NCBI GenBank assembly: GCA_947629035.1
Contig: CANRCE010000006.1
Location: 1-49,744, forward strand
Reading direction: 5' to 3'
Length of the DNA: 49,744 nt
Origin: an uncultured Bacilli bacterium
GTDB lineage: Bacteria; Bacillota_I; Bacilli_A; RF39; UBA660
The translations under genes and the position numbers were made by a program. The notes beneath the pieces are model-generated. The model saw only the letters and a list, made by a program, of their open reading frames with translations. It was not told the origin of the DNA and made no database searches. Shown here one piece after another: positions 37,497-49,744 of the stretch. How positions within the stretch are numbered: the first letter of the stretch is position 1; each line of letters opens with the position of its first letter.

Positions 37497-37841
37497 ATGA
37501 TAAAAACAAATGCAAATGATTTTTTAGGTAAAGAGGTAACTGTAAAGATAGACAGGCAATTAGGTTCAAAACATCCAAAACATGGATTTATGTATATGCT
37601 AAATTATGGTTTTATACCTAATACAATTAGTGGTGATGGTGAAGAGCTAGATGCTTATTTAGTTGGTGAATTTGAACCAGTAGAAGAAAGTAAAGGTAAA
37701 GTAATAGCAGTTATTCATAGAACTAATGACGATGATGATAAGTTAGTTGTTTCAAAAAATGGTAAAGATTATTCTGATGATGCTATTAAAGCTATGACAG
37801 AATTTCAAGAACAATTTTTTGAATCAATTATTATTAGATAA
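37497..37841 (+). CDS. Short inorganic-pyrophosphatase-like protein
   Basis: 114 aa, shorter than the usual 160-180 of family I PPase but like the small Firmicutes members. Key blocks: KIDRQLGSKHPKHGFMYMLN, YGFIPNTISGDGEELDAYLVGE (the Asp-rich metal site of PPase is D-G-x-x-L-D-A-Y here), and KVIAVIHRTNDDDDKLVV. Some catalytic Asp positions may be missing, so activity on PPi is uncertain. The ribosome site TTGGAGAA is 11 nt from the ATG. Confidence 0.75.
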   Translation: MIKTNANDFLGKEVTVKIDRQLGSKHPKHGFMYMLNYGFIPNTISGDGEELDAYLVGEFEPVEESKGKVIAVIHRTNDDDDKLVVSKNGKDYSDDAIKAMTEFQEQFFESIIIR

Positions 37842-38323: not shown

Positions 38324-38707
38324 ATGATTAAAATAAATGATACACAATATAATAATTATCAAATAGAAGTCACATGGGGAAATTTTAGCGTTTCTAACAA
38401 AAATGGTAAAAATAGATCTGGACAAGCACCCTTTATTACTTTTGATCTAGAAAATGGCATGTCAATAGGATTGGAATTTATATTTTCAAAAGTTATGTTT
38501 TTAAATACAAAAATAAATGTAGAAACAAATATAAAAGAATATATAAGTGATATAATTTTTAAAAATGATGAAGGATGGAATTTATTATGGTCAGAAAAAT
38601 ATGATTGTAGCATTACAAGAATAAATGAAAAAGCTTTTCGTTTAAACTTTTATATTGAAGAAAGTGAAGTAAATATATTTATAAATGAAAATATTGATTT
38701 ATTTTAA
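38324..38707 (+). CDS. Hypothetical protein, 127 aa
   Basis: Not recognised. All-beta character with alternating hydrophobic strands (QIEVTWGNFSVSN, FITFDLENGMSIGLEFIF, FRLNFYIEESEVNIFI); no membrane helix or signal. AAAGGAAA is 9 nt before ATG 38324. The gene stands alone between decayed sequences, so a recent cargo gene is possible. Confidence 0.55.
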   Translation: MIKINDTQYNNYQIEVTWGNFSVSNKNGKNRSGQAPFITFDLENGMSIGLEFIFSKVMFLNTKINVETNIKEYISDIIFKNDEGWNLLWSEKYDCSITRINEKAFRLNFYIEESEVNIFINENIDLF

Positions 38708-38735: not shown

Positions 38736-38859
38736 AAAAAATTATCTCTATTTAGATATAAAATATTTAAATGTTTGAAAAGTTCGAACAGATTCATCAA
38801 TATAGCAATTACTAAAAAGATTAAATTACACTTTTATAACAAATTCATTAGAAAAATAT
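38736..38859 (-). ncRNA. Degenerate member (A) of the small-RNA-like family
   Basis: It shares GAAAAGTTCGAACAGATTC (38777-38795) with copy C, and AATGAATTT then TTATAAAAGTG (minus strand) with copy B. The core is weakened (ATTGCTATA on the minus strand). A 5-bp stem with a T-rich tail stands at 38736-38758. The promoter would be TAACAA-18-GATTAT, which is poor. Likely a decayed copy. Confidence 0.3.
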
Positions 38860-38897
38860 GCTATGATAATCACATATTAAAAGGTTTATTTGTTAAA

Positions 38898-39053
38898 TCA
38901 TGAACTAATATCCTTTTTGTTTAGTTGTTTAGAAAAGTTTAACAATTGTCTTTTAGTAAATTTAGTTAAAAAAGCAATTTGAGAATAAGAATAATTATTT
39001 AAACCATCAATTTTATCTTGAACAAGTTTTAATGCATATTCTTTGTTATGCAT
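38898..39053 (-). pseudogene. N-terminal fragment of a transposase-like HTH protein
   Basis: 51 codons from ATG 39053: MHNKEYALKLVQDKIDGLNN, then YSYSQIAFLTKFTKRQLLNF, ending SKQLNKKDISS-stop. The pattern of a short helical start followed by IAxxTxxTKRQLxxxxKxL is that of the helix-turn-helix at the start of ISNCY/IS3-like transposases. The rest of a transposase is absent. GAAAGG lies 12 nt before the ATG. It could also be a free-standing small DNA-binding protein. Confidence 0.4.
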
Positions 39054-39167
39054 CTAAAAACATTTCCTTTCTAAAGAGATATTATACAACAATATAAAGT
39101 TGGCGAAATTTTAACTAATGATATGGTAAAATTTAAAAAAAGGATTTAACAAATGTTTTACAATATT

Positions 39168-39196
39168 TTGACTTTTTGCATATAATATGTTATATT
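39168..39196 (+). promoter_or_regulatory. Promoter of the coiled-coil surface protein
   Basis: TTGACT (39168-39173), 17-nt spacer, TATATT (39191-39196), with AAAGGAGG before ATG 39228. Both elements are strong, which suggests high expression. Confidence 0.8.
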
Positions 39197-39227
39197 TTAT
39201 ATGTAATATTTAAAGGAGGAAAATATT

Positions 39228-40646
39228 ATGAACAAGAAATTTGCTAAATCTGTTGCAGGTGTAGCTTTAGCTACTGGTATTGCTGCAGGTGGTATTTATA
39301 CTATAAATGATAATTTAAATGCTAGCGATGGTACGTCAAATAATGTGAATGTAATATCTTTTGCAGAAAAGTTAAATGCTAATGGAAAGATAGTTACTAC
39401 TGAAGAAGAAAAAGCCTACGTTGAAGCTAAAGAAGAAACTAAAAAGGCTGAAGAAAGTGTAGAAACAGCTAGTAAAGCTGAAGAAACTGCTAAAGCAAAT
39501 GTTGAAACGGCTAAAAAAGAAGAGAAAAAAGCTGAAATTGCAAAAGAAACTGCTATAAAAGAAACAAAAGCTGCAGTTGAAGAAACAAAGAAAGCTGAAG
39601 AAAAAAGAGCCAAAGCCGAAGCTGAAGTAAAAACTGCAAAAAGTGATGAAGAAAAAGCTGTTGCTCAAGCAAAACTAAAAGAAGCTGAAGAAGAAAAAGC
39701 CAAAGCTATAGAAGCTCAAAAGAAAGCTGAAGAAAAACAAAAAGCTGCTGAAGAAGCTGCAAAAAAGGCTGCTGAAGAAGCTAGAAAAGCTGAAGAAGCT
39801 AGAAAGGCTGCTGAAGCCGAAAGAATAGCTGCTGAAGAAAAAGCCAAAGCTGCTAAAGCTGCAGAGGAGGAAGCTGCTAGGAAAGCTGAAGAAGCTAGAA
39901 AAGCTGCAGAGGAGGAAGCTGCTAGAAAGGCTGCCGAAGATGAAGCATTCAAAAGAATGATGGAAATGGCTAAAAAAGGTGCTGCATTAGATGAAGAAAA
40001 TTATCAAAATCAATTAAAACAAAAACAAGATGAAATAGATAAGAAAAGAGCAGAAAGATTAGCACAAGAAGCTGCAGAAAAAGCAGAGCAAGAAAGAGAA
40101 GCTGCAGAAAAAGCTGCTGCTGAAGAAGCTAGAAAAGCTGCCGAAGAAGCACAAAAACAAGTAGAACAAAGCACAAAAGAAACAATTCAGCCTAAAGTTT
40201 ATAAACTATCTGATAATGAAAGAGCACAAATAGTATCTACAAGCAAAACTATTGCTACAGTTCCATCAGTTGCAATTAAGACAATAGGTGTTAAAAATAA
40301 TTTAGATCAAGAAACACTTGAAAAATGGTCATATAAGGATGAAGAGACAGGAGAAATAAAAGAACTTGGTGCCGGAATTATCTGGTGGGCACATTTTGAA
40401 TGTGATATGACTTTCTGTGAGGGATTCCAAAATCGTACTGGTCAAGGTAAGGTTGGTAGTATTGATGAGGGAAGACGTGGTTCAGTTAAAAGTATCACAA
40501 TGACTGCGCCAGAAGCAAAAAAAGGTTATAAATTTGTAGGATGGAAAAAAATTGATGATATTAAATATACAACTCAAGAAGGCGAAACAACATATGAAAT
40601 AACAATTCCATCATACAAAGCTTTATATGAATCAATAGCTGATTAA
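39228..40646 (+). CDS. Secreted Ala/Glu/Lys-rich coiled-coil surface protein
   Basis: 472 aa. Signal-peptide-like start (MNKKFAKSVAGVALATGIAA and on to about 32). Residues about 58-325 are a long charged helix of AEEARKAAEE-type repeats with clear heptads, like TolA or M-protein stalks. The C-terminal 140 residues form a globular part with two Cys (ECDMTFCEG), Trp pairs (IIWWAH) and an InlB-repeat-like end (KKGYKFVGWKKIDD ... YEITIPSYKALYE). There is no LPxTG or other sorting signal, so it may stay attached by its uncleaved N-terminus or be released. The stalk is much richer in G+C than its surroundings (GCT, GCA, GAA, AAA codons). Confidence 0.75.
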   Translation: MNKKFAKSVAGVALATGIAAGGIYTINDNLNASDGTSNNVNVISFAEKLNANGKIVTTEEEKAYVEAKEETKKAEESVETASKAEETAKANVETAKKEEKKAEIAKETAIKETKAAVEETKKAEEKRAKAEAEVKTAKSDEEKAVAQAKLKEAEEEKAKAIEAQKKAEEKQKAAEEAAKKAAEEARKAEEARKAAEAERIAAEEKAKAAKAAEEEAARKAEEARKAAEEEAARKAAEDEAFKRMMEMAKKGAALDEENYQNQLKQKQDEIDKKRAERLAQEAAEKAEQEREAAEKAAAEEARKAAEEAQKQVEQSTKETIQPKVYKLSDNERAQIVSTSKTIATVPSVAIKTIGVKNNLDQETLEKWSYKDEETGEIKELGAGIIWWAHFECDMTFCEGFQNRTGQGKVGSIDEGRRGSVKSITMTAPEAKKGYKFVGWKKIDDIKYTTQEGETTYEITIPSYKALYESIAD

Positions 40647-40680
40647 TTGTTAAATAATTAATGTTAATTAAAATAATTTT

Positions 40681-40725
40681 GAAAAAGAACTGTTTGAAGA
40701 TTTTTTCAATGGTTCTTTTTTATTA
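40681..40725 (+). terminator. Terminator of the surface protein gene
   Basis: AAAGAAC plus TTGAA pairs with TTCAA plus GTTCTTT around a small bulge, followed by T residues. Confidence 0.75.
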
Positions 40726-40937
40726 CAATTTTGATAATCTTAAAAAAATGTTTTTATTCAAAAGATGTACCGAAAATCCTTATAATAGAAGCAATGCTTC
40801 TTGTCTAATGACCATGCTTACATAAACCAAAAATTTCTTTAGAATTCGAAATATGTTTATGATAAAGATATTAAATTCATCTTTCTATCTTGATTTTCTG
40901 TCGTCATACTCTAATCATTTATCCTTTCTTAAATAAC

Positions 40938-41061
40938 AAAAAAACTAACATTTCTGTTAGCATTTATTACTCTTGAAATAAATTAGTTCAAGTTTCCTAT
41001 CATATTGGAGCGATTAATAAAAGGTTTATGCACTTTTATAATAAATTCATTTGTATTTGAT
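40938..41061 (-). ncRNA. Candidate small RNA, copy B
   Basis: On the minus strand: promoter TTGCAA (41097-41092), 18 nt, TATAAT (41073-41068); about 124 nt of RNA; core ATCGCTCCA (41014-41006); hairpin CTTGAA/TTCAAG (40992-40972); terminator CTAACA, GAAA, TGTTAG, seven T (40960-40938). The same layout and length occur in copy C. No coding frame is conserved between copies. Confidence 0.45.
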
Positions 41062-41328
41062 AAATTAATTATAACGAAAATACTATTTAATTTGCAATTC
41101 TTTCACCAGTTTTATTAGGAAATTTATTAAGAAAATACTAGGGAATATGATATAATTAAATTATAATAATTGATTTATTTAGTTTTGAAAAATTATATAA
41201 TTTAAAAGAAATAGAACTAACATTTTGTCTTAAACAACATATTATTCATAATAATAGACATATAAACAGCGAAAGTGAATTAAATAAAGAAAGTACGCTT
41301 TGAATAGAGATTAAAATTAATTAGCTTT

Positions 41329-41361
41329 TTTAATGTTTCTTTAACCTTTGTATTTTATACT
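41329..41361 (+). promoter_or_regulatory. Direct-repeat operator and -10 box of the beta-helix gene
   Basis: TTTAATGTTTC (41329-41339) followed directly by TTTAACCTTTG (41340-41350), then 5 nt, then TATACT (41356-41361). The 11-bp period is typical of OmpR/PhoB-type regulators. The same arrangement recurs at 45057-45089. Confidence 0.65.
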
Positions 41362-41391
41362 TTGATTGTAAAAAAGAAAGGGAGAAAAATT

Positions 41392-43101
41392 ATGCAAAGA
41401 AAAACAAAAAATATTATATCTATTTTTATCATTTTATTACTATGTGGAGGTATCATTTTTACTGGATATTTAAGTACCAAATCATCTAATATTAGTAATA
41501 GTAATAATATGCCAAACATGAGTCAAAATGGAAGTGAGCCACCAGAAAAACCTGATGGAAATAACAATATAGGAAATCCACCAGAAATTCCAAACAATAA
41601 TGGTGATATGGAACAAATGGGAGGGCAACCAGAAAATAATGCAGACAATAATTATGTTTACTTAATTCTTTCTGGAATAGAAAGTTTAACTCTATCTATT
41701 ATTATACTTTATCTAATAATGTCAGGATTTAATAAAAAGTCTTTTAAAGAAACATTTACTAATACGGATAAAATAGTAATCTATGTTTTAGAAGTAATTA
41801 TCTTAACAAGTGGACTTATTTTTACTGAAAATTTAGTTGCTAATAAATATAAAGATAATACGCCTATTAATAATCCTAATCAAGGTATGGAAGCTAGACA
41901 AAATACAAATATATCTTATTCAGCTATAAAGGAAATTACTAAATCAACAACTGAAGATAGTGACGAATATGAAAGTACAAAAAAGGATGAAAATGCTATT
42001 TTAGTTAGTGGCGATATTGATGTAACTTTATCAGATATTAAAGTAGATAAAAGTGGCGATTCAGATGGTGGGGATAATACTAGCTTTTATGGTACTAATT
42101 CAGGAATCATTGCCAAAGATGGAGCTAATTTAATACTTAAAAATTTAACAATAAATACAAATGCAACTGGAGCAAATGGTGTATTTAGTTACGGAGGAAG
42201 TGCGACAACAAATAATACAAATAGTGATGGTACACAAGTAACAATTAGTGATTCTAAAATAACAACAACAAAAGATAACTCTGGGGGAATTATGACAACT
42301 GGTGGAGGAACTATGATTGCAAAAAATCTTACAATCAATACTGCAGGTGTATCAAGTGCAGCCATAAGATCCGATCGTGGAGGGGGAACAGTAAGCGTTG
42401 ATGGTGGAACATATAAGACAACTGGTTCAGGTTCTCCTACTATTTATTCGACTGCTGATATAACAGTTAAAAATGCATCTTTAATTGCTACGACTTCCGA
42501 AGGTGTTGTAATTGAAGGAAAGAATAAAATTACTCTTGAAAATGTAACTTTAACTGATACAAATAATAAATTAAATGGACAATCTACTACATATAAAAAT
42601 ATATTTTTATATCAATCTATGAGTGGAGATGCATCTACTGGGGTATCAGAGTTTAGTGCTACTGATTCTACAATAACTACAAATAAAGGTGATACTTTCT
42701 ATATTACTAATACAAGTTCAAAAATCACTTTAAAAAATAATAAATTTATAAATAATGATTCTACTGCTAACTTTTTAAGAGCACAAAAAGATTCTTGGGG
42801 AAATAATGGTTCGAATGGTGGCATCGTAGAGTTATTAATGGAAAATCAAGAAGCTAAAGGGAAAATTGTTATAGATTCTATTTCTACTCTTGATATGACT
42901 ATGAATACAAACTCTTATTATGAAGGAACAATAAATGGTGAAAATAGTGCGAAAGAGATAAAATTAAAATTAGATAAAACATCTAAAATTAAATTAACAG
43001 GTAATAGTTATATAACTTCTCTTGATAATGCTAATAGTAGCAATAGTAATATTGATTTTAATGGTTATACATTATATGTAAATGGTAAAACTGTAAATTA
43101 A
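41392..43101 (+). CDS. Membrane-anchored beta-helix protein (Cthe_2159/DUF4353-like)
   Basis: 569 aa. A first membrane helix (about 7-26) is followed by a Pro/Asn/Met-rich segment (30-80: MPNMSQNGSEPPEKPDG, NMEQMGGQP-type), two more helices (89-110, 129-148), and from about 180 an outside right-handed beta-helix of short strands (ILVSGDIDVTLSDIKV, GANLILKNLTINT, TVSVDGGTYKTTG, NKITLENVTLTDT, GYTLYVNGKT end). The beta-helix resembles carbohydrate-binding Cthe_2159 proteins, which are often found beside two-component and ABC genes. ATG 41392 after AAAGGGAG is preferred to the frame start at 41362. First gene of the five-gene module. Confidence 0.75.
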   Translation: MQRKTKNIISIFIILLLCGGIIFTGYLSTKSSNISNSNNMPNMSQNGSEPPEKPDGNNNIGNPPEIPNNNGDMEQMGGQPENNADNNYVYLILSGIESLTLSIIILYLIMSGFNKKSFKETFTNTDKIVIYVLEVIILTSGLIFTENLVANKYKDNTPINNPNQGMEARQNTNISYSAIKEITKSTTEDSDEYESTKKDENAILVSGDIDVTLSDIKVDKSGDSDGGDNTSFYGTNSGIIAKDGANLILKNLTINTNATGANGVFSYGGSATTNNTNSDGTQVTISDSKITTTKDNSGGIMTTGGGTMIAKNLTINTAGVSSAAIRSDRGGGTVSVDGGTYKTTGSGSPTIYSTADITVKNASLIATTSEGVVIEGKNKITLENVTLTDTNNKLNGQSTTYKNIFLYQSMSGDASTGVSEFSATDSTITTNKGDTFYITNTSSKITLKNNKFINNDSTANFLRAQKDSWGNNGSNGGIVELLMENQEAKGKIVIDSISTLDMTMNTNSYYEGTINGENSAKEIKLKLDKTSKIKLTGNSYITSLDNANSSNSNIDFNGYTLYVNGKTVN

Positions 43102-43120
43102 AAAATGGAGGTGGTAATAC

Positions 43121-43798
43121 TTGCGAATTTTAGTTGTAGAAGATGAAGAGGCAATCGCAGATGTTATAGCAACAAAACTACGAGCTGAAAAGTATGAAGT
43201 TGATACAAGTTTTGATGGCGAAGATGGATTATATAATGCCATGACAAATATATATGATTTAATCATTCTTGATATAATGTTACCTAAAATGAATGGTTTA
43301 GAAATACTAAAAGAAATAAAAGATAATGATATAAGTGCTAAAGTTATCATGCTTACTGCTAAATTTGAATTAGATGATAAATTAAAGGGATTTAATACTG
43401 GAGCAGATGATTATGTAACAAAACCTTTTCATATTGAAGAATTAATTGCAAGAGTAAATGTTCAATTAAGAAGTATTGGAAATCATAAAGCTAAAGATAT
43501 ATTAGAATATAGCGATTTATCATTAAACATTAAAACTTCTACTCTAACTTGTAAACTTACAAATGAGTCAATAAATATCCCATATAGAGAATTTCTATTA
43601 CTTGAATATTTTATTAATAATAAAGAACAAATTATATCAAAAGAACAAATTTATGATAAAGTTTGGGGAATTAATACCGATTATGAATCTAACAATTTAG
43701 AAGCCTACTTATCTTTTTTAAGAAAGAAAATAAAAATTATTGGATCAAAAGTAAGTATTAAAGCTGTTCGTAATTTAGGTTATAAAATGGAGGAATAA
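43121..43798 (+). CDS. OmpR-family response regulator
   Basis: 225 aa. Receiver domain with acidic pair E7/D8, phosphoacceptor Asp51 (LIILDIMLPKMNG), Thr in MLTAKF and Lys in TKPFH; then a winged-helix DNA-binding domain (YREFLLLEYFINNKEQIISKEQI ... YLSFLRKKI ... AVRNLGYKMEE). It starts at TTG 43121 with GGAGGTGG upstream. Its likely binding sites are the 11-bp direct repeats at 41329 and 45057. Confidence 0.95.
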   Translation: MRILVVEDEEAIADVIATKLRAEKYEVDTSFDGEDGLYNAMTNIYDLIILDIMLPKMNGLEILKEIKDNDISAKVIMLTAKFELDDKLKGFNTGADDYVTKPFHIEELIARVNVQLRSIGNHKAKDILEYSDLSLNIKTSTLTCKLTNESINIPYREFLLLEYFINNKEQIISKEQIYDKVWGINTDYESNNLEAYLSFLRKKIKIIGSKVSIKAVRNLGYKMEE

Positions 43799-43804
43799 AG
43801 AGAT

Positions 43805-45037
43805 ATGGAAAATTTAAAGAAAAAAACATTTTTTATTATTTTTATTATCATCTCTTTATTTGCCTTTGTTTTTGCTATGTTTTTTAATATTCAAACCTAT
43901 CATAAAGAATATACAGGAATATTAAATAATTTAACAAGAATGAGAAATTTGACTATAAAAAGACCTGAACCTTTTGACAAAGAAATGAGACCGATAAATG
44001 ATGAAGAACTTCGTAATAGAAAAGTTATGGATTATGAAGTTTATACATTTATCTTAAATGATAGTAATGATATTGTTGATAAAATAAGTCATAGCGATAA
44101 TGATATTAGTGATGAAATTATAAATAAAGCTAAAAATATTATTGCTAGTAATAACACAAGTAAAGTAAAAATTGGCTGTTTATATTGGAATAAATATGCT
44201 TATAATTTTGAAAATAATAATTCTTTAACGATTGTAAATATAACTAACACTAGAAATATGTTACTTATGAACTTACTAATCTCTTTATTATTAATTTGTT
44301 TTGGTGAATTAGTTATTTATATCATTTCTAAAAAAATAACAGAGTGGATTACGAAACCAGTTTTGGAAAGTTTTGATAGAGAAAAAGAATTTGTGGCTAA
44401 TGCTTCTCATGAACTTAAAACTCCACTTGCAGTTATGATGGCAAGTATCGATTGTTTAGATGTAAATAAGAAAAATGAAAAATGGATTAATAATTTAAAA
44501 AGTGAATCTGATAGAATGAGTAATTTGATAACTAGATTACTTGATTTATCTAAAACTGAATATTTGAAAAAAGGAAATTTCAGTAAAAATGATATTTCTA
44601 TGATTATAGAGAAAAGAGCTTTAACATTTGAAAGTTTAGCATACGAAAAAGATATAACTATCGAAACTAATATTACTGAAAAAATAAACTTTCTTTGTCA
44701 TAAAGAAAGCATAGATGAATTAGTATCTATTTTAATTGATAATGCTATTAGTCATGGAAAAGGAAATAGTAAAATTAAAATTAATCTAATGAGTGATAAA
44801 ACTGAAATAAAATTGGAAGTAATTAATGAGGGAGATCCTATATCGCCTTCAGAATGTGAAAAAATATTCGAAAGATTTTACAGGAATGATAAAAGTCATA
44901 ATCGTAAAAGTGGAAGATATGGTTTGGGACTTGCCATAGCTAAAAATATTGTAAAAGCCCATAATGGTAATATTAGAGCCTATTCTAAAGATGGATATAC
45001 TACTTTTGAAGTTAAATTTAAAATGAACGAACATTAA
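43805..45037 (+). CDS. Sensor histidine kinase
   Basis: 410 aa. Two membrane helices (about 8-29 and 152-174) enclose an outside sensor of about 120 residues with a charged, Met/Pro-bearing segment (RPEPFDKEMRPINDEELRNRK). The dimerisation helix has the phosphorylated His202 in ANASHELKTPLAV. ATPase motifs are DNAISHGKG (N), FERFYR (F) and GRYGLGLAIAK (G). Partner of the regulator 6 nt upstream. It lacks a clear HAMP domain. Confidence 0.94.
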   Translation: MENLKKKTFFIIFIIISLFAFVFAMFFNIQTYHKEYTGILNNLTRMRNLTIKRPEPFDKEMRPINDEELRNRKVMDYEVYTFILNDSNDIVDKISHSDNDISDEIINKAKNIIASNNTSKVKIGCLYWNKYAYNFENNNSLTIVNITNTRNMLLMNLLISLLLICFGELVIYIISKKITEWITKPVLESFDREKEFVANASHELKTPLAVMMASIDCLDVNKKNEKWINNLKSESDRMSNLITRLLDLSKTEYLKKGNFSKNDISMIIEKRALTFESLAYEKDITIETNITEKINFLCHKESIDELVSILIDNAISHGKGNSKIKINLMSDKTEIKLEVINEGDPISPSECEKIFERFYRNDKSHNRKSGRYGLGLAIAKNIVKAHNGNIRAYSKDGYTTFEVKFKMNEH

Positions 45038-45059
45038 CGAAAAAAAGTTAATGTTTTTT
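45032..45059 (+). terminator. Hairpin between kinase and permease genes
   Basis: CATTAAC, AAAAAAA-containing loop, GTTAATG, then six T. It ends the upstream unit and touches the operator that begins at 45057, so the ABC genes have their own promoter. Confidence 0.7.
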
Positions 45060-45089
45060 AATGTTTCTTTAATATTTACATAATAAAAT
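45057..45089 (+). promoter_or_regulatory. Direct-repeat operator and -10 box of the ABC genes
   Basis: TTTAATGTTTC (45057-45067) then TTTAATATTTA (45068-45078), 5 nt, TAAAAT (45084-45089). The 19-nt string TTTTTTAATGTTTCTTTAA is identical to that upstream of the beta-helix gene, and the spacing to the -10 box is identical. Confidence 0.65.
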
Positions 45090-45114
45090 GATATTGTATT
45101 AAAGGAGGAATATT

Positions 45115-46581
45115 ATGTTTATATTAAAAAACGCATGGATTTCAATTAAAAGAAATAAAGGAAGGAACATTTTAATAGGAATAATTATTTTAATTATTGC
45201 TTGTGCTTGTACCATAACACTTGCAATTAAAAACACAGCAGTAGATTTGATAAATTCCTATAAAAATGCTTATGACAAAGAAGTAACAATTAGTTTTAAT
45301 AGAGCTAATATGATGAAAGACTTTGATCCATCGCAAGAGGAGTCAAGGGAAAATGCAAGAGAAAGATTTGATAATATTGAGAGCTTCACAATTAGTGATG
45401 TTGAGTCTTTTGCTGATAGTAAGTATATTGAAAGTTATTATTATACTTATAGTGTTGGACTTAATGGAAATAATATTGAAAAAGCCGAAATAGAATCAAA
45501 TAATGATATGCCAAATGGCTTTGGTCGTGGAAAACAAAACAATTTGTCATCTACTGATTTTACTTTAACTGGTTATAGCTCATTAGATGCTATGAGTGAA
45601 TTTATAAATGGTACTTATACTATGAATGAAATAACTGATAATGCTTGGGATATTGCCTTTGATGGTAACTATGTATTTATTAACGAGGAACTTGCTTCCT
45701 ATAATGATTTAAACTTAAATGATAAAATAAAACTAGCAAGTGATGATGGAAATACTTATGAATTTGAAATTATTGGTATTTTTAAAGAAAACGAAGAAGG
45801 AAGTACTGATGCAATGTCAATGTTTTCAAATTCAGCCAATACTCTTGTAACAAATGCTAGTGCTGCTATAAACATTACTGCAAGTAATGAAGAAATAAAT
45901 GCTACAATTAATCCAACATTTATAATAGATTCTTATGATAATATCGAAAAACTACAAGATGAATTCTACGAAAAAGGTTTAGATGAAAATTTTGTTTTAC
46001 AAACGAATGAGGAAGAAGCAAATAGTGGAGTATCAAGTATTCAAAATATTAACTCATTTGCTACTACTTTTTTAGTAATTACTCTTATTATTGGTGGAAT
46101 TGTTTTATTCGTAATTAATATGATAAATATTCGTGAAAGAAAATATGAAATAGGAGTTTTAAGAACAATTGGTATTAGTAAGTTTAAATTAACAATGCAA
46201 TTTGTATCAGAACTTGTTATTGTTTCAGTAGTTGCTCTTATACTTGGTGCCTGTATTGGTGCAGTAAGTTCTAAAGGGGTAAGTAATTCTTTACTAGAAA
46301 GTGAAATAAATAGTAGTAATGAAAGAACCGTAGAAATAGGTAAAAACTTTGGTGGAGCTAATATGAATGGTGGTATGCCTGATCGTGGAAATAGAGGCGA
46401 AATGAGAGGTAAAGGTATGCCAGTTGTAGAGGCTTACGATTCTATTGATGCCGTAGTGGATATTAAAGTTTTACTAGAACTACTTGGAATTGGAATTTCA
46501 CTTGTGTTAGTAAGTTCTATTGCTTCAATGGTTAGTATAGAGAGATTTTCACCACTTACAATATTGAAAGAGAGGTCTTAA
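45115..46581 (+). CDS. FtsX-like ABC transporter permease
   Basis: 488 aa. Helix 1 at about 18-38, a large outside domain (40-312), helices 2 and 3 at about 313-336 and 358-384, and helix 4 at about 452-472: the MacB/FtsX layout. Between helices 3 and 4 is an unusual outside Gly/Met/Asn-rich segment (about 410-440: FGGANMNGGMPDRGNRGEMR and so on). The sensor and the beta-helix protein of the module also have Met/Pro/Asn-rich outside segments, so the parts may recognise a common ligand. AAAGGAGG precedes ATG 45115. Confidence 0.9.
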   Translation: MFILKNAWISIKRNKGRNILIGIIILIIACACTITLAIKNTAVDLINSYKNAYDKEVTISFNRANMMKDFDPSQEESRENARERFDNIESFTISDVESFADSKYIESYYYTYSVGLNGNNIEKAEIESNNDMPNGFGRGKQNNLSSTDFTLTGYSSLDAMSEFINGTYTMNEITDNAWDIAFDGNYVFINEELASYNDLNLNDKIKLASDDGNTYEFEIIGIFKENEEGSTDAMSMFSNSANTLVTNASAAINITASNEEINATINPTFIIDSYDNIEKLQDEFYEKGLDENFVLQTNEEEANSGVSSIQNINSFATTFLVITLIIGGIVLFVINMINIRERKYEIGVLRTIGISKFKLTMQFVSELVIVSVVALILGACIGAVSSKGVSNSLLESEINSSNERTVEIGKNFGGANMNGGMPDRGNRGEMRGKGMPVVEAYDSIDAVVDIKVLLELLGIGISLVLVSSIASMVSIERFSPLTILKERS

Positions 46582-46583
46582 TA

Positions 46584-47312
46584 ATGGCAAATAAAGTAAA
46601 AAATAACAAAGAAATAAAAGAAAAAAATAATTCTTCCAACAATATTATTTTAAGTATTAAAAATGCTAGTTATAGGTATAGTGATGCTAAAGAAGATGAT
46701 TATGCTTTAAGAGATGTTAGTTTTGATTTTGAAAGTGGAAAAATGTATGCTATAAGAGGTCGAAGTGGTACAGGAAAAACGACATTATTATCTTTAATAA
46801 GTGGACTTGAAAGATGTACTGAAGGTGAAATCATCTTTGATGGTAAAAGTTTAAAAGATATGAATTTAGATAAATATCGAAATAGTGATATTGGTATTGT
46901 ATTTCAAAGTTATAATTTACTACCTTTTATGACTGCTAGTGAAAATATAGTTCTTTCTATGGATGTGAGTGGTTTAAAAATTAAAAAGAAAAAAGAAAAA
47001 GCCATTGAACTTATGGAAAAAGTAGGATTAAAAGAAACTTATGCCGATCGTAGGGTATTAAGGTTATCTGGTGGAGAACAACAAAGAGTTGCTATTGCAA
47101 GAAGTTTATCTTATAATCCTAAAATAATACTTGCAGATGAGCCAACGGGAAATCTTGATAAACAAACAGAAACTGAAATTCTAGAAATATTTAAAAAGTT
47201 AGCCCACAAAGAAAATAAATGTGTTATTATTGTAACTCACTCTCAAAATGTTTGTGATAATGTTGATGTAATATATGACTTAAAAAAATCAAAAGAAGAA
47301 GAAAAAAAGTAG
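46584..47312 (+). CDS. ABC transporter ATP-binding protein (MacB/LolD type)
   Basis: 242 aa. A Lys/Asn-rich 25-residue N-terminal extension precedes the domain. Walker A is GRSGTGKTT (near 60), Q-loop VFQSYNLLPFMTASENI, signature LSGGEQQRVAIARSL, Walker B IILADEPTGNLD, H-loop VTHSQ. It pairs with the permease 2 nt upstream; the family mostly serves mechanotransmission or export of peptides rather than import. GAGAGG precedes the ATG. The module ends at the terminator at 47303. Confidence 0.94.
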   Translation: MANKVKNNKEIKEKNNSSNNIILSIKNASYRYSDAKEDDYALRDVSFDFESGKMYAIRGRSGTGKTTLLSLISGLERCTEGEIIFDGKSLKDMNLDKYRNSDIGIVFQSYNLLPFMTASENIVLSMDVSGLKIKKKKEKAIELMEKVGLKETYADRRVLRLSGGEQQRVAIARSLSYNPKIILADEPTGNLDKQTETEILEIFKKLAHKENKCVIIVTHSQNVCDNVDVIYDLKKSKEEEKK

Positions 47313-47342
47313 TTTTAGTAATATCACCAAATCTACTTTTTT
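47303..47342 (+). terminator. Terminator of the ABC operon
   Basis: AAAAAGTAG pairs with CTACTTTTT around a 20-nt loop; seven T follow. The left arm includes the stop codon of the ATPase gene. Confidence 0.8.
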
Positions 47343-47576
47343 TGAAATATTATAAGAATTACACAAGTAAATAAATCTTTATCCATTTTCAAAATAATTC
47401 TATATAAAATTTATGATTTTATAAGAAAAGATTATATGCACTTTTCTAAAATTTAATAGATTTTACTTTCTTTAATCATTTATTATTTATATCACTTTTA
47501 TTTGTACCATTTTTATCATTAAAGTATTTCCCAAAATTATTTTAGGTATAAATTTTGCTTAATTTTTAAATAAATA

Positions 47577-47679
47577 GAAAAACTCGCAAGTGTGCGAATT
47601 TAAACCTCAATGGAGCAATTGTGGAAGATATTTACAACTTTCACTCATAACGATTTGATATATAAAATATCAATCTCTA
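47577..47679 (-). ncRNA. Candidate small RNA, copy D
   Basis: On the minus strand: a 5' hairpin TTGATAT/ATATCAA (near 47660), a second stem AGTTGT/ACAATT, an exposed core GCTCCATTGAGG, then terminator TCGCA, CACT, TGCGA, GTTTTTC (47597-47577). The core matches that of copies B and C. The -10 (TAAAAT or TATGAT at 47686-47696) has no good -35. Confidence 0.38.
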
Positions 47680-47682
47680 ATA

Positions 47683-47742
47683 ATTATTTTATCATAATTT
47701 TCCTTATATGTATCAGAAATTTTTAAATTTTATGATAAAATA
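47683..47742. promoter_or_regulatory. Inverted repeat with divergent -10 elements
   Basis: TTATTTTATCATAA near 47684-47697 and its reverse complement TTATGATAAAATAA near 47730-47743 are separated by about 32 nt. Each arm contains TATGATAAAAT pointing outwards: one towards copy D, the other towards the gene at 47763. Confidence 0.5.
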
Positions 47743-47762
47743 ACTATATAGAGGTGGAAAAA

Positions 47763-48317
47763 ATGACTGCATCAGACTGTATTCAAATAGCCATTGCAAT
47801 AATAACATTATTAGGAATAGTAACATCATTAGTAATTTCTATTTGCACATTAAAACAAAATAGTAAGATAATTGAAGACTCAAATAAAGCAAATATTATT
47901 CTTTATATTGATTTTAATCCTACTACTAGTAGATACTATATAGTTATTAAGAACTTTGGGAATAGTGTTGGTAAACTTATTTCTATTAAAATTACTCCTA
48001 AACTAAATTGGAAAAAGACAAAATTTAAACAGAATAGAAGACCGATTACAGACTCAAAAAATGTATTATTAGCGCCAAATCAAAAAATAGCATCTTGGTT
48101 TGATTTTAAAGATTATCCAGATAGAAAATTTAAAGTAACATTAAATTATGAATCTTTAGGGAAAAAATATATCAATGAATATGAGATTGATTTATCATTT
48201 GTTGATAATATAGATTGGAGAGTTCAATACGCATTTGATGATAATACAAAAGATAACAAAGAGGCATTATATAAAATAAATAACAGCATTCAAGATTTAA
48301 CAGATAAATTCAGATAA
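47763..48317 (+). CDS. Membrane-anchored protein of unknown function
   Basis: 184 aa. One N-terminal helix (about 6-30, IQIAIAIITLLGIVTSLVISI), a short charged turn, then a cytoplasmic or outside domain with beta-strands (IILYIDFNPTTSRYYIVIKNFGNSVGKLISIKI). The string IVIKNFGNSVGK is common in accessory-genome proteins of unknown role. ATG 47763 after GAGGTGG is chosen over GTG 47754 within that site. Gene order suggests cargo of the accessory region. Confidence 0.6.
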   Translation: MTASDCIQIAIAIITLLGIVTSLVISICTLKQNSKIIEDSNKANIILYIDFNPTTSRYYIVIKNFGNSVGKLISIKITPKLNWKKTKFKQNRRPITDSKNVLLAPNQKIASWFDFKDYPDRKFKVTLNYESLGKKYINEYEIDLSFVDNIDWRVQYAFDDNTKDNKEALYKINNSIQDLTDKFR

Positions 48318-48383
48318 TTTTGTTAGAAGTATTGTATTTAATAAGGTTTTGTGCTATTATAAAACTAAATCAAGGAGGAATTT

Positions 48384-49082
48384 ATGGAAAATAGAAAATA
48401 TAAGGTAAGAAGAGATAATATTTATGTTGGTGAAGTTGTAAGAACTGATAGTATATATCGTTATGAAAGAGATACGGACTTACTTCGTACTAAACCAGGA
48501 CAATTAAATACAGGTAGTTGGTTTTCTTATAGAAGTATGCTATTTGTGCCTAATGAGAAAAAATTATCAAATGACTTATTATATCGAAGCCCTAACTACC
48601 CTATTCTAAATGTCACTGATGATGAAACTTGTTTAGGCCTTGGAGAAAAAAGTATAGTAATAAAAGATGCTTGTAATTTAGCAGCATTACTTGAATATTT
48701 TGGATATAATAAAGATTTAACTTTTGAAGACATAATGAGAATAAGAAAAACTTTCTTTACAGGAAAATTTGCTATGGATAATTGTGAATTATTTGGTTGG
48801 AAAGAAATTCAACCTGAAGATTGGACATACTATAAAAAGGGTATTAAAATTATTGATCCTGAAGAATTAAAAAGAATAATAGCTCAAGAAATAAGAGTTC
48901 AACAGGCAGGACATAGATTATTTACAGGAATTCCTGAAAGTGTATTACCTAGAGAATATTTTGATGTTTTAGATAAAATGGGTGATAATGATTTAATGCA
49001 TGCTCTTAAAAGGCATGAAAAAATGAATACTTTTGCACCACATAAACAAGAAGGCCCTGTTAAAAAATTAACGAGATTTTAA
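48384..49082 (+). CDS. Hypothetical protein, 232 aa
   Basis: Not recognised. Soluble, no signal or membrane segment. A first part with beta character (YKVRRDNIYVGEVVRTDSIY, TGSWFSYRSMLFVPN) is followed by a helical part (IVIKDACNLAALLEYFGY, LTFEDIMRIRKTFFTG) and a C-terminal helical stretch ending in HKQEGPVKKLTRF. AAGGAGG lies 6 nt before the ATG. It lies just upstream of a mob relic that is read on the other strand, so it may be a passenger of the same lost element. Confidence 0.6.
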   Translation: MENRKYKVRRDNIYVGEVVRTDSIYRYERDTDLLRTKPGQLNTGSWFSYRSMLFVPNEKKLSNDLLYRSPNYPILNVTDDETCLGLGEKSIVIKDACNLAALLEYFGYNKDLTFEDIMRIRKTFFTGKFAMDNCELFGWKEIQPEDWTYYKKGIKIIDPEELKRIIAQEIRVQQAGHRLFTGIPESVLPREYFDVLDKMGDNDLMHALKRHEKMNTFAPHKQEGPVKKLTRF

Positions 49083-49084
49083 AA

Positions 49085-49120
49085 GAAAATTTTAAGCATT
49101 AACGCTTAAAATCTTCTTTT
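49085..49120. terminator. Bidirectional terminator at the end of the 232-aa gene
   Basis: ATTTTAAGC (49089-49097) pairs with GCTTAAAAT (49104-49112) over a 6-nt loop, with T-rich flanks on both strands. The right arm also codes for the last residues of the mob relic. Confidence 0.7.
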
Positions 49121-49440
49121 TCTATTGCTTTATATTCTTTTGAATTTTTAGACTGAAATATACCTATAATATTTTCATAATTTTTATTATCTAATGCACC
49201 ATTATTATATAATTTTTAACAAACTCTTTATATTTATTATCTTTGATTCTAAATATTTTATCCATTAGAAATTGAACTAATTGATAAATCATTTCTTTAA
49301 AATGTTCAAATGTTGATTTTAAAGAATAATTTTCTTCTTTTAATTCTTGAATTTCATTTTCTTTAATATTCAACTTCCTGATTAAGTTTTTCATTATTTC
49401 CTGTTAGTAATTTTAATCTTTTACGATTCCAATTTTGTCT
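49099..49440 (-). pseudogene. MobV (Pre/Mob) relaxase C-terminal remnant
   Basis: Read on the minus strand in several frames: KLLTGNNEKLNQEVEY (around 49412-49365), then NIKENEIQELKEENYSLKST with FEHFKEMIYQLVQFLMDKIF and KEFVKN (49365-49205), then after a shift in TATATA: YNNGALDNKNYENIIGIFQS and KNSKEYKAIEKEDFKR-stop at 49099. The coiled coil followed by the FxHFKExIxxLxxFLxxK block is the C-terminus of plasmid recombination/mobilisation proteins. At least two frameshifts, and the catalytic N-terminal half is missing. Confidence 0.6.
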
Positions 49441-49474
49441 TTGACAAAATTATTAACCCCCTAGGAATTTTGTC
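49431..49474. repeat. Threefold inverted-repeat block
   Basis: AATTTTGTC (49431-49439), TTT, GACAAAATT (49443-49451), 14 nt (ATTAACCCCCTAGG), AATTTTGTC (49466-49474). The middle arm can pair with either flank, so two hairpins are mutually exclusive. It lies next to the MobV relic and may be an oriT or element end. Confidence 0.5.
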
Positions 49475-49511
49475 AAGTGTATCAAAATATCTGTAGGTAT
49501 TTTTATAAAAA

Positions 49512-49638
49512 TAAAAACCATCTCAATTAAGAGATGAAATATATTTGAATGCTCGAAAAGTTCGAACAGATTCGTCAATGGAGCGATAGCTTTACTTATA
49601 TTCGAAAAATTATACTCCCAAGATTGACTAAATCAACT
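49512..49638 (-). ncRNA. Candidate small RNA, copy C
   Basis: On the minus strand: promoter TTGCGA (49674-49669), 18 nt, TATAAT (49650-49645); about 127 nt of RNA; core ATCGCTCCATTGA (49587-49575); hairpin GUUCGA/UCGAGC (49567-49551, one G-U pair); terminator CATCTC, TTAATT, GAGATG, GTTTTTATTTTT (49536-49508). Shares 19 identical nt with copy A and the same promoter spacing as copy B. Confidence 0.45.
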
Positions 49639-49744
49639 AAATTAATTATAGCAATTTCTAGAATTATTTCGCAAATTTTTAGACTAAATGCAGGTTTATA
49701 AAAATTTGTTTAATTTACTAGACTTATTTCAGGTTTAAAGTCAA

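Follow-up and report, generated by a model that had tools for sequence, protein, structure and literature searches.

What are the four short intergenic elements, here called A, B, C and D, that lie within a 49,744-nucleotide (nt) stretch of DNA from an uncultured Bacilli bacterium of the RF39 lineage UBA660 (the window; assembly GCA_947629035.1, contig CANRCE010000006.1)? An initial annotation, made from the sequence alone, took them for four copies of one undescribed small-RNA family. All four are indeed present, all on the minus strand. Rfam holds no family matching them, and an Rfam search of the window at the gathering threshold and at E values up to 10 returned only one tRNA. The elements are real, yet each is a junction of two mobile modules and not a copy of one RNA gene; the half before the motif GCTCCA, a promoter with a leader of 45-70 nt, is the right end of one module, and the next module begins, at its left end, with the half after it, a hairpin with a terminator. 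We judge it probable, at roughly 0.8, that they are attachment-site (att) junctions between small modules arrayed in tandem, and that these modules descend from integrative mobilizable elements (IMEs) that carry a large serine recombinase (LSR) and insert at the CCA ends of tRNA and tmRNA genes.

Two halves of different origin

The promoters first described for B (TTGCAA-18-TATAAT; -35 at 41092-41097, -10 at 41068-41073) and C (TTGCGA-18-TATAAT; -35 at 49669-49674, -10 at 49645-49650) are both in place. The proposed order of leader, GCTCCA, hairpin and terminator stands for B and C, and core, hairpin and terminator are found in B, C and D; A is decayed, with core GCTATA and without a clear promoter. 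Nor are the copies homologous from end to end. C and A are alike only after the core (80% identity over 75 nt, confined to its 3' side), A and B only before it (by profile comparison, confined to its 5' side), and D has a third type of right end, apart from those of A/B and C. What had looked like covariation between the mid hairpins of B and C is a comparison of two unrelated trailer families, T7 and T1, and not of one helix. The core itself, initially read as a loop acting on ribosome-binding sites, is the recombination core, formed by the CCA at the 3' end of the targeted tRNA; behind tRNA-Leu and tRNA-Thr it is GCACCA instead of GCTCCA. The core 12-mer was discarded as a marker, as 6 of its 9 matches in the genome lay in coding-type sequence and only B, C and D were intergenic units.

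Read along the minus strand, the window runs C unit / T1 .. D unit / T4 .. B unit / T7 .. A unit / T1, which makes three complete tandem modules (1968, 6605 and 2202 bp), recombinase-less and specifically devoid of an LSR, plus a fourth, partial module:

49579..49674, minus strand: C right-end unit, type C; core GCTCCA at 49578-49583; the contig runs on beyond it
49520..49581, minus strand: T1 trailer, left end of module 1; TTGACGAATCTGTTCGAAC hairpin and terminator; T1 profile E 5e-13
47611..49579, minus strand: module 1 (T1...D, 1968 bp); end types T1 and D match
47611..47680, minus strand: D right-end unit, type D; extended -10; core GCTCCA at 47610-47615; model R1 E 1.8e-15, and a profile match
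47570..47613, minus strand: T4 trailer and its terminator, at the left end of module 2; T4 profile
41006..47611, minus strand: module 2 (T4...B, 6605 bp); matched-end analysis
41006..41097, minus strand: B right-end unit, type B; core GCTCCA; profile match 41062-41006
40938..41008, minus strand: T7 trailer and its terminator, at the left end of module 3; CUUGAA/UUCAAG hairpin; T7 profile
38804..41006, minus strand: module 3 (T7...A, 2202 bp); matched-end analysis
38804..38850, minus strand: A right-end unit, type B, decayed; core GCTATA, promoter lost; profile E 5e-4
38763..38801, minus strand: T1 trailer, left end of the partial fourth module; T1 profile E 6e-8

The half after the core is recognizable from its company elsewhere. 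BLAST of C in its own genome placed the post-core part immediately after the CCA in tRNA-Gly(tcc) and tRNA-Leu(tag) (T1 trailer copies L014 and L016). Among 97 relatives, the trailer KTGACGAATCTGTTCGAACTWTTCGAAC, followed by a terminator, stands behind the CCA of tmRNA and of tRNAs for Gly, Leu, Thr, Phe, Cys, Met and Ala, and it is found behind 5' halves that are not tRNA as well. This position behind tRNA CCA ends identifies the succession of AUCGCUCCA core, hairpin and terminator as a tRNA-style 3' end. The tRNAs called by ARAGORN end at the core; the target is thus the 3' end of the tRNA or tmRNA gene, and the tRNA is left whole. Applied to the 5' halves of the units, ARAGORN found no tRNA.

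End types locked within modules

In 36 segments between consecutive cores, the types of left trailer and right unit are locked together (mutual information (MI) 1.08, where the highest value among 20,000 shuffles was 0.757), the pairs being T1-D in 15 of 18 cases, T2-C in 8 of 8 and T6-6 in 3 of 3; at 87 junctions the halves that touch are nearly independent (MI 0.25, reached by 573 of 20,000 shuffles), both statistics drawing on related and hence non-independent elements and on types assigned by profiles seeded from the same data. Ends that are locked within modules and free across junctions mean that each supposed RNA is built from the ends of two elements. Matched recombinase-less arrays occur elsewhere as well, at L165 (T1..D of 1331 bp, T2..C of 1756 bp) and L169 (T2..C of 1382 bp, T6..6 of 1576 bp), and several such modules measure 0.7-1.3 kb.

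The empty site is seen in the congener G222, where tRNA-Cys ends in CCTCCA and is followed by 6 bp (TGGATT) and then tRNA-Gly(gcc). Genome G037 is 94% identical to it on the tRNA-Cys side and 91% on the tRNA-Gly side, and holds a 6.7-kb LSR element between the two tRNAs, which starts exactly behind CCTCCA. The comparison adds a precise insertion and its unoccupied counterpart to the architecture and end-type pairing that are read from the arrays themselves.

Complete elements with a recombinase

Complete relatives (L173, L175, L176, L183-L187, L190 and L197) have the layout tRNA..CCA / trailer-terminator, an open reading frame (ORF) of about 90 amino acids (aa), LSR, (TnpV), relaxase, cargo, promoter/leader..CCA / host sequence, with an LSR of PF00239 plus PF07508 near one end and a relaxase of PF03432 or PF01076. 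In L173, L175 and L176, tRNA-Gly..GCTCCA is followed by the trailer, the ~90-aa ORF, the LSR (PF00239 and PF07508), a PF03432 relaxase, cargo and a C unit..GCTCCA, with TnpV (PF14198) beside the LSR wherever it was looked for. L183-L187 and L197 combine a T1 trailer and an LSR with a D unit at the right, and in L183 and L186, the two of this set that were checked, the relaxase is of the Mob_Pre type. T6 is paired with unit 6 in L190 and, behind tmRNA, T7 with unit 4 in L182; the LSR clades track the end types. The T1-type LSR of L183 (14811-16736) is the sole recombinase among four genes, which include no tyrosine integrase.

Every recombinase-bearing complete element inspected has the ~90-aa ORF immediately after its left end, for example:

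L183, 16927-17205, minus strand: ~90-aa ORF
L197, 15857-16129, minus strand: ~90-aa ORF
L173, near 9400, minus strand: ~90-aa ORF

Its product bears the motif ..FICxF..xPxxxNGxIxxIxxxNLxYxEPHxxII..FLxFN.., matches no family in Pfam or NCBIfam, and is a candidate directionality factor or regulator. Recombinases of the other class were also seen: contig C69 of genome G000 (L118) carries three consecutive tyrosine recombinase genes in a recombinase-in-trio arrangement, and a similar trio lies within a type-C element (L166, 4080-7276). A right end of type 5, whose core is GCTCCA, lies at L177:1-76 and is followed by a T2 module with TnpV and without an LSR, an element in decay.

Conservation and spread of the right ends

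Further copies in related genomes, for which the initial annotation proposed a search, are widespread: right-end type D alone was found by model search in 177 of 291 genomes and 114 of 150 genera of the family. With a pattern made from the 5' half of C, 37 real copies were found among GTDB genomes; nearly all of these genomes are metagenome-assembled ones of uncultured Bacilli/Tenericutes, with a few labelled Clostridia. These type-C copies are conserved from promoter to CCA and diverge abruptly after it, and in an all-versus-all DNA comparison of the loci the common cargo stops at CCA. The adjoining genes vary, and a defence role is suggested by the look of many of them (HerA with DUF4297, PDC-S02 (DUF1016 nuclease), PDC-S06, PDC-S46, PDC-M22B and methyltransferases). 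Scans of viral contigs with two patterns gave one chance match inside a gene for the first and none for the second; these are not phage features. The initial annotation had counted copies that turn out to be the ends of one transposon with a conserved coding frame as a refutation of its reading, and the outcome, halves that are ends of two different mobile elements, comes close to this.

At the level of sequence the right-end promoter is real, and it sits at the 3' end of the element, facing the att site: an extended -10 score of at least 7 is reached by 60% of 86 D units, compared with 8% of dinucleotide shuffles. Relative to shuffles, the fold z is -1.75 (mean) for leaders, -2.2 for att halves and -2.5 for trailers. 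With the conserved extended -10, this better folding makes a short structured transcript from the units likely.

A proposed promoter switch at the element ends

The right end of a module (5' of GCNCCA) consists of an outward promoter, a structured leader and then an att half of 30 bp, and the left end of the next (3' of GCNCCA) of a tRNA-like 3' trailer comprising spacer, hairpin and intrinsic terminator. In the mechanism that we propose, transcription of the ~90-aa ORF and the LSR would start at the tRNA promoter in the integrated state and pass the trailer terminator; in the excised circle, the right-end promoter would take its place before the recombination operon; and in arrays it would run into the terminator of the next module, yielding the RNA of ~125 nt seen in the initial annotation. 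At a split tRNA operon it could in addition re-supply transcription of the downstream tRNA, G037 being the one case. In most elements with a clear start, the ~90-aa ORF begins about 30-45 nt past the T-run of the terminator, which leaves no room for a promoter of its own, so that it would have to be read through the trailer; a 130-nt gap before the LSR may hold an extra LSR promoter. The switch is modelled on ICEKp1, an integrative and conjugative element (ICE) shown to work in this manner, with the tRNA-Asn promoter used when integrated, a 3'-end promoter when excised, and terminator-like stem-loops between (PMC13023037).

Several points weigh against this account. The contig ends beside C, and the tRNA starting the array lies outside view. 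A few segments have mismatched ends (T1-4, T1-8, T1-C, T3-C), probably through trailer types still unmodelled or an internal trailer match. Promoterless units exist that retain only ~31-36 nt before CCA, which makes the promoter dispensable for recombination. Promoter use and read-through are inferred from sequence, and expression of the recombination operon in the circle would be reduced by the terminator that separates it from the promoter.

Alternative roles for the units

It is possible, although on balance unlikely, that the right-end promoter serves instead genes which the insertion has parted from the tRNA promoter and which it would bring back into transcription, mainly the downstream tRNAs of a split operon. 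The G037 element (L197) fits, its D unit and promoter lying 10 bp before the tRNA-Gly cut off from tRNA-Cys, as does the observation that the clearest promoterless units adjoin a co-directional gene, which could read through; the short promoterless cases read by hand that abut a gene were all co-directional, in a sample that was not blindly chosen and on which we base no claim. Among about 100 D units checked, however, none besides L197 lies directly before a tRNA, the orientation test, which asked on automatic calls if promoterless units require a co-directional gene upstream, is not significant (p 0.67), and most units run straight into a terminator.

Somewhat less plausible is a trans-acting small RNA with a CCA end, a tRNA mimic regulating genes of the host or the element. 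The folding of leader and att half beyond that of shuffles would suit such an RNA, as would the conservation of promoter and leader far past the ~31-nt half kept by truncated copies, and differences in the core letter go together with differences in the closing stem beside it (8 of 2000 permutations, with no correction for kinship). RNAalifold, however, found no consensus pairs in 14 D units, in an alignment where MAFFT had misaligned the 5' hairpin; the palindromes may be DNA operators, which would look alike; and the end types have no sequence in common except the core dictated by the tRNA target. A further motif bears on the question from both sides. ACTCCCA precedes the LSR (in the leader in L171, L173 and L176) and the right-end -35 of type-C and type-5 units, while TGGGAGT occurs inside the type-C leader, and the two are likely an operator pair or an RNA-RNA contact. 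The complementarity of UUGGGAGUAU in type C to AUACUCCC in the leader before the LSR speaks for RNA; the presence of ACTCCCA also upstream of type-5 promoters, whose leader lacks TGGGAGT, favours a DNA operator.

The single antisense family of the initial annotation, with four copies whose GCUCCA acts on ribosome-binding sites, is very improbable: B, C and D do have promoter, hairpin and terminator, but their halves come from different elements and combine independently across junctions, the letter in the core (GCTCCA or GCACCA) depends on which tRNA is the target, the core is gone from A, and the same trailers serve bona fide tRNAs. The pairing of ends within modules already refutes a one-family reading. 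That the units are pseudo-tRNAs or remnants of tRNA operons without mobility is scarcely credible, since the CCA core and tRNA-type trailers would fit but the 5' halves are not tRNA by ARAGORN, are conserved with their promoter across genera as ends of LSR elements, and such LSR elements exist.

Cargo of the window array

The two genes of module 1 (47754-48317 and 48384-49082) include no recombinase and had no match in a Pfam/NCBIfam search. The type-C profile match of the C unit spans 49656-49579 (E 6e-22). Module 2 encodes a beta-helix-type protein, a response regulator, a histidine kinase, an ABC permease and an ATPase; its T4 trailer and adjoining operon recur behind a type-C unit in L156, where a stretch of 2.4 kb is 92% identical. 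A relative of the B unit precedes a T1 trailer in L088. Module 3 holds a single gene for a secreted repeat protein (39228-40646; weak match to Flg_new_2/InlB-type repeats), and the partial fourth module the gene 38324-38707; profile scans found no right end for the latter. A homologue of the window gene 37497-37841 (DNA identity 88% over 438 bp) follows a type-C unit in L147, which suggests that the chromosomal insertion region is the same in the two genomes. In G000, contigs C6, C8, C26, C36 and C44 carry units or tRNA trailers near their ends, as expected if these repeats break assembly.

Comparison with known systems

tRNA-targeted islands, tandem accretion, cis-mobilizable elements (CIMEs) and 3'-end promoters are already known. 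LSRs that target tRNA 3' ends, and their integron-like arrays, appear to be new within the open-licence literature searched, and later reports may exist. IME surveys assign tRNA specificity to tyrosine integrases (PMC5704250, PMC5357655); streptococcal elements at tRNA genes use such integrases, and streptococcal serine IMEs disrupt protein or ICE genes (PMC5357655). For tRNA targeting by serine integrases, specificity is given as unknown in the accessible island literature. The present units matter in several ways: they explain small-RNA-like intergenic sequences of uncultured gut Bacilli as mobile-element junctions, and warn against RNA families built from them; they make paired attP halves readable from sequence for several LSR clades, LSR/att pairs being sought as genome-integration tools; they bring to light arrays in which defence-type genes accumulate at the ends of tRNAs; and they offer a testable case of the ICEKp1 promoter-switch logic.

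Elements of the Tn4451/Tn4453 type (TnpX, TnpV, relaxase) resemble ours in the LSR with Resolvase and Recombinase domains, TnpV, the relaxase and the cargo at the other end. However, Tn4451 integrates with low specificity (PMC5704250) and the elements described here go to tRNA CCA ends, those of type T1 with a Mob_Pre-type relaxase instead. ICEKp1, a tyrosine ICE at tRNA-Asn, likewise has a tRNA promoter before its recombination operon, a stem-loop/terminator between them and an outward 3'-end promoter reading through att (PMC13023037); the present elements differ in their serine recombinase, their Bacillota hosts, their recombinase-less modules in arrays and a strong trailer/terminator of their own, which also matures and ends the tRNA. 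Islander-type tRNA islands share integration at tRNA/tmRNA 3' ends, a tRNA kept whole and tandem accretion, but here the island brings a trailer and not a tRNA fragment. Streptococcal CIMEs and IME accretion provide the precedent of matching ends in tandem without a recombinase of their own (PMC5704250).

Integron cassettes are similar in their arrays of 0.7-2 kb single-gene modules, co-oriented att sites and defence-type cargo. The observed cores and complete elements are those of LSR elements; neither IntI nor attC folding was noted, although no search aimed at IntI or attC was made. Tentatively, and at somewhat less than even odds, we regard the arrays as a serine-recombinase counterpart of integrons, in which recombinase-less cassettes of 0.7-2 kb with matched ends would be moved in trans by LSR elements and stacked co-oriented at tRNA CCA ends; each cassette, often with a single defence-type gene, would have at one end a promoter with a leader that mimics a tRNA and at the other the trailer/terminator of a tRNA. 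What sets them apart from integrons is the LSR, the paired left and right ends and the targeting of tRNA ends.
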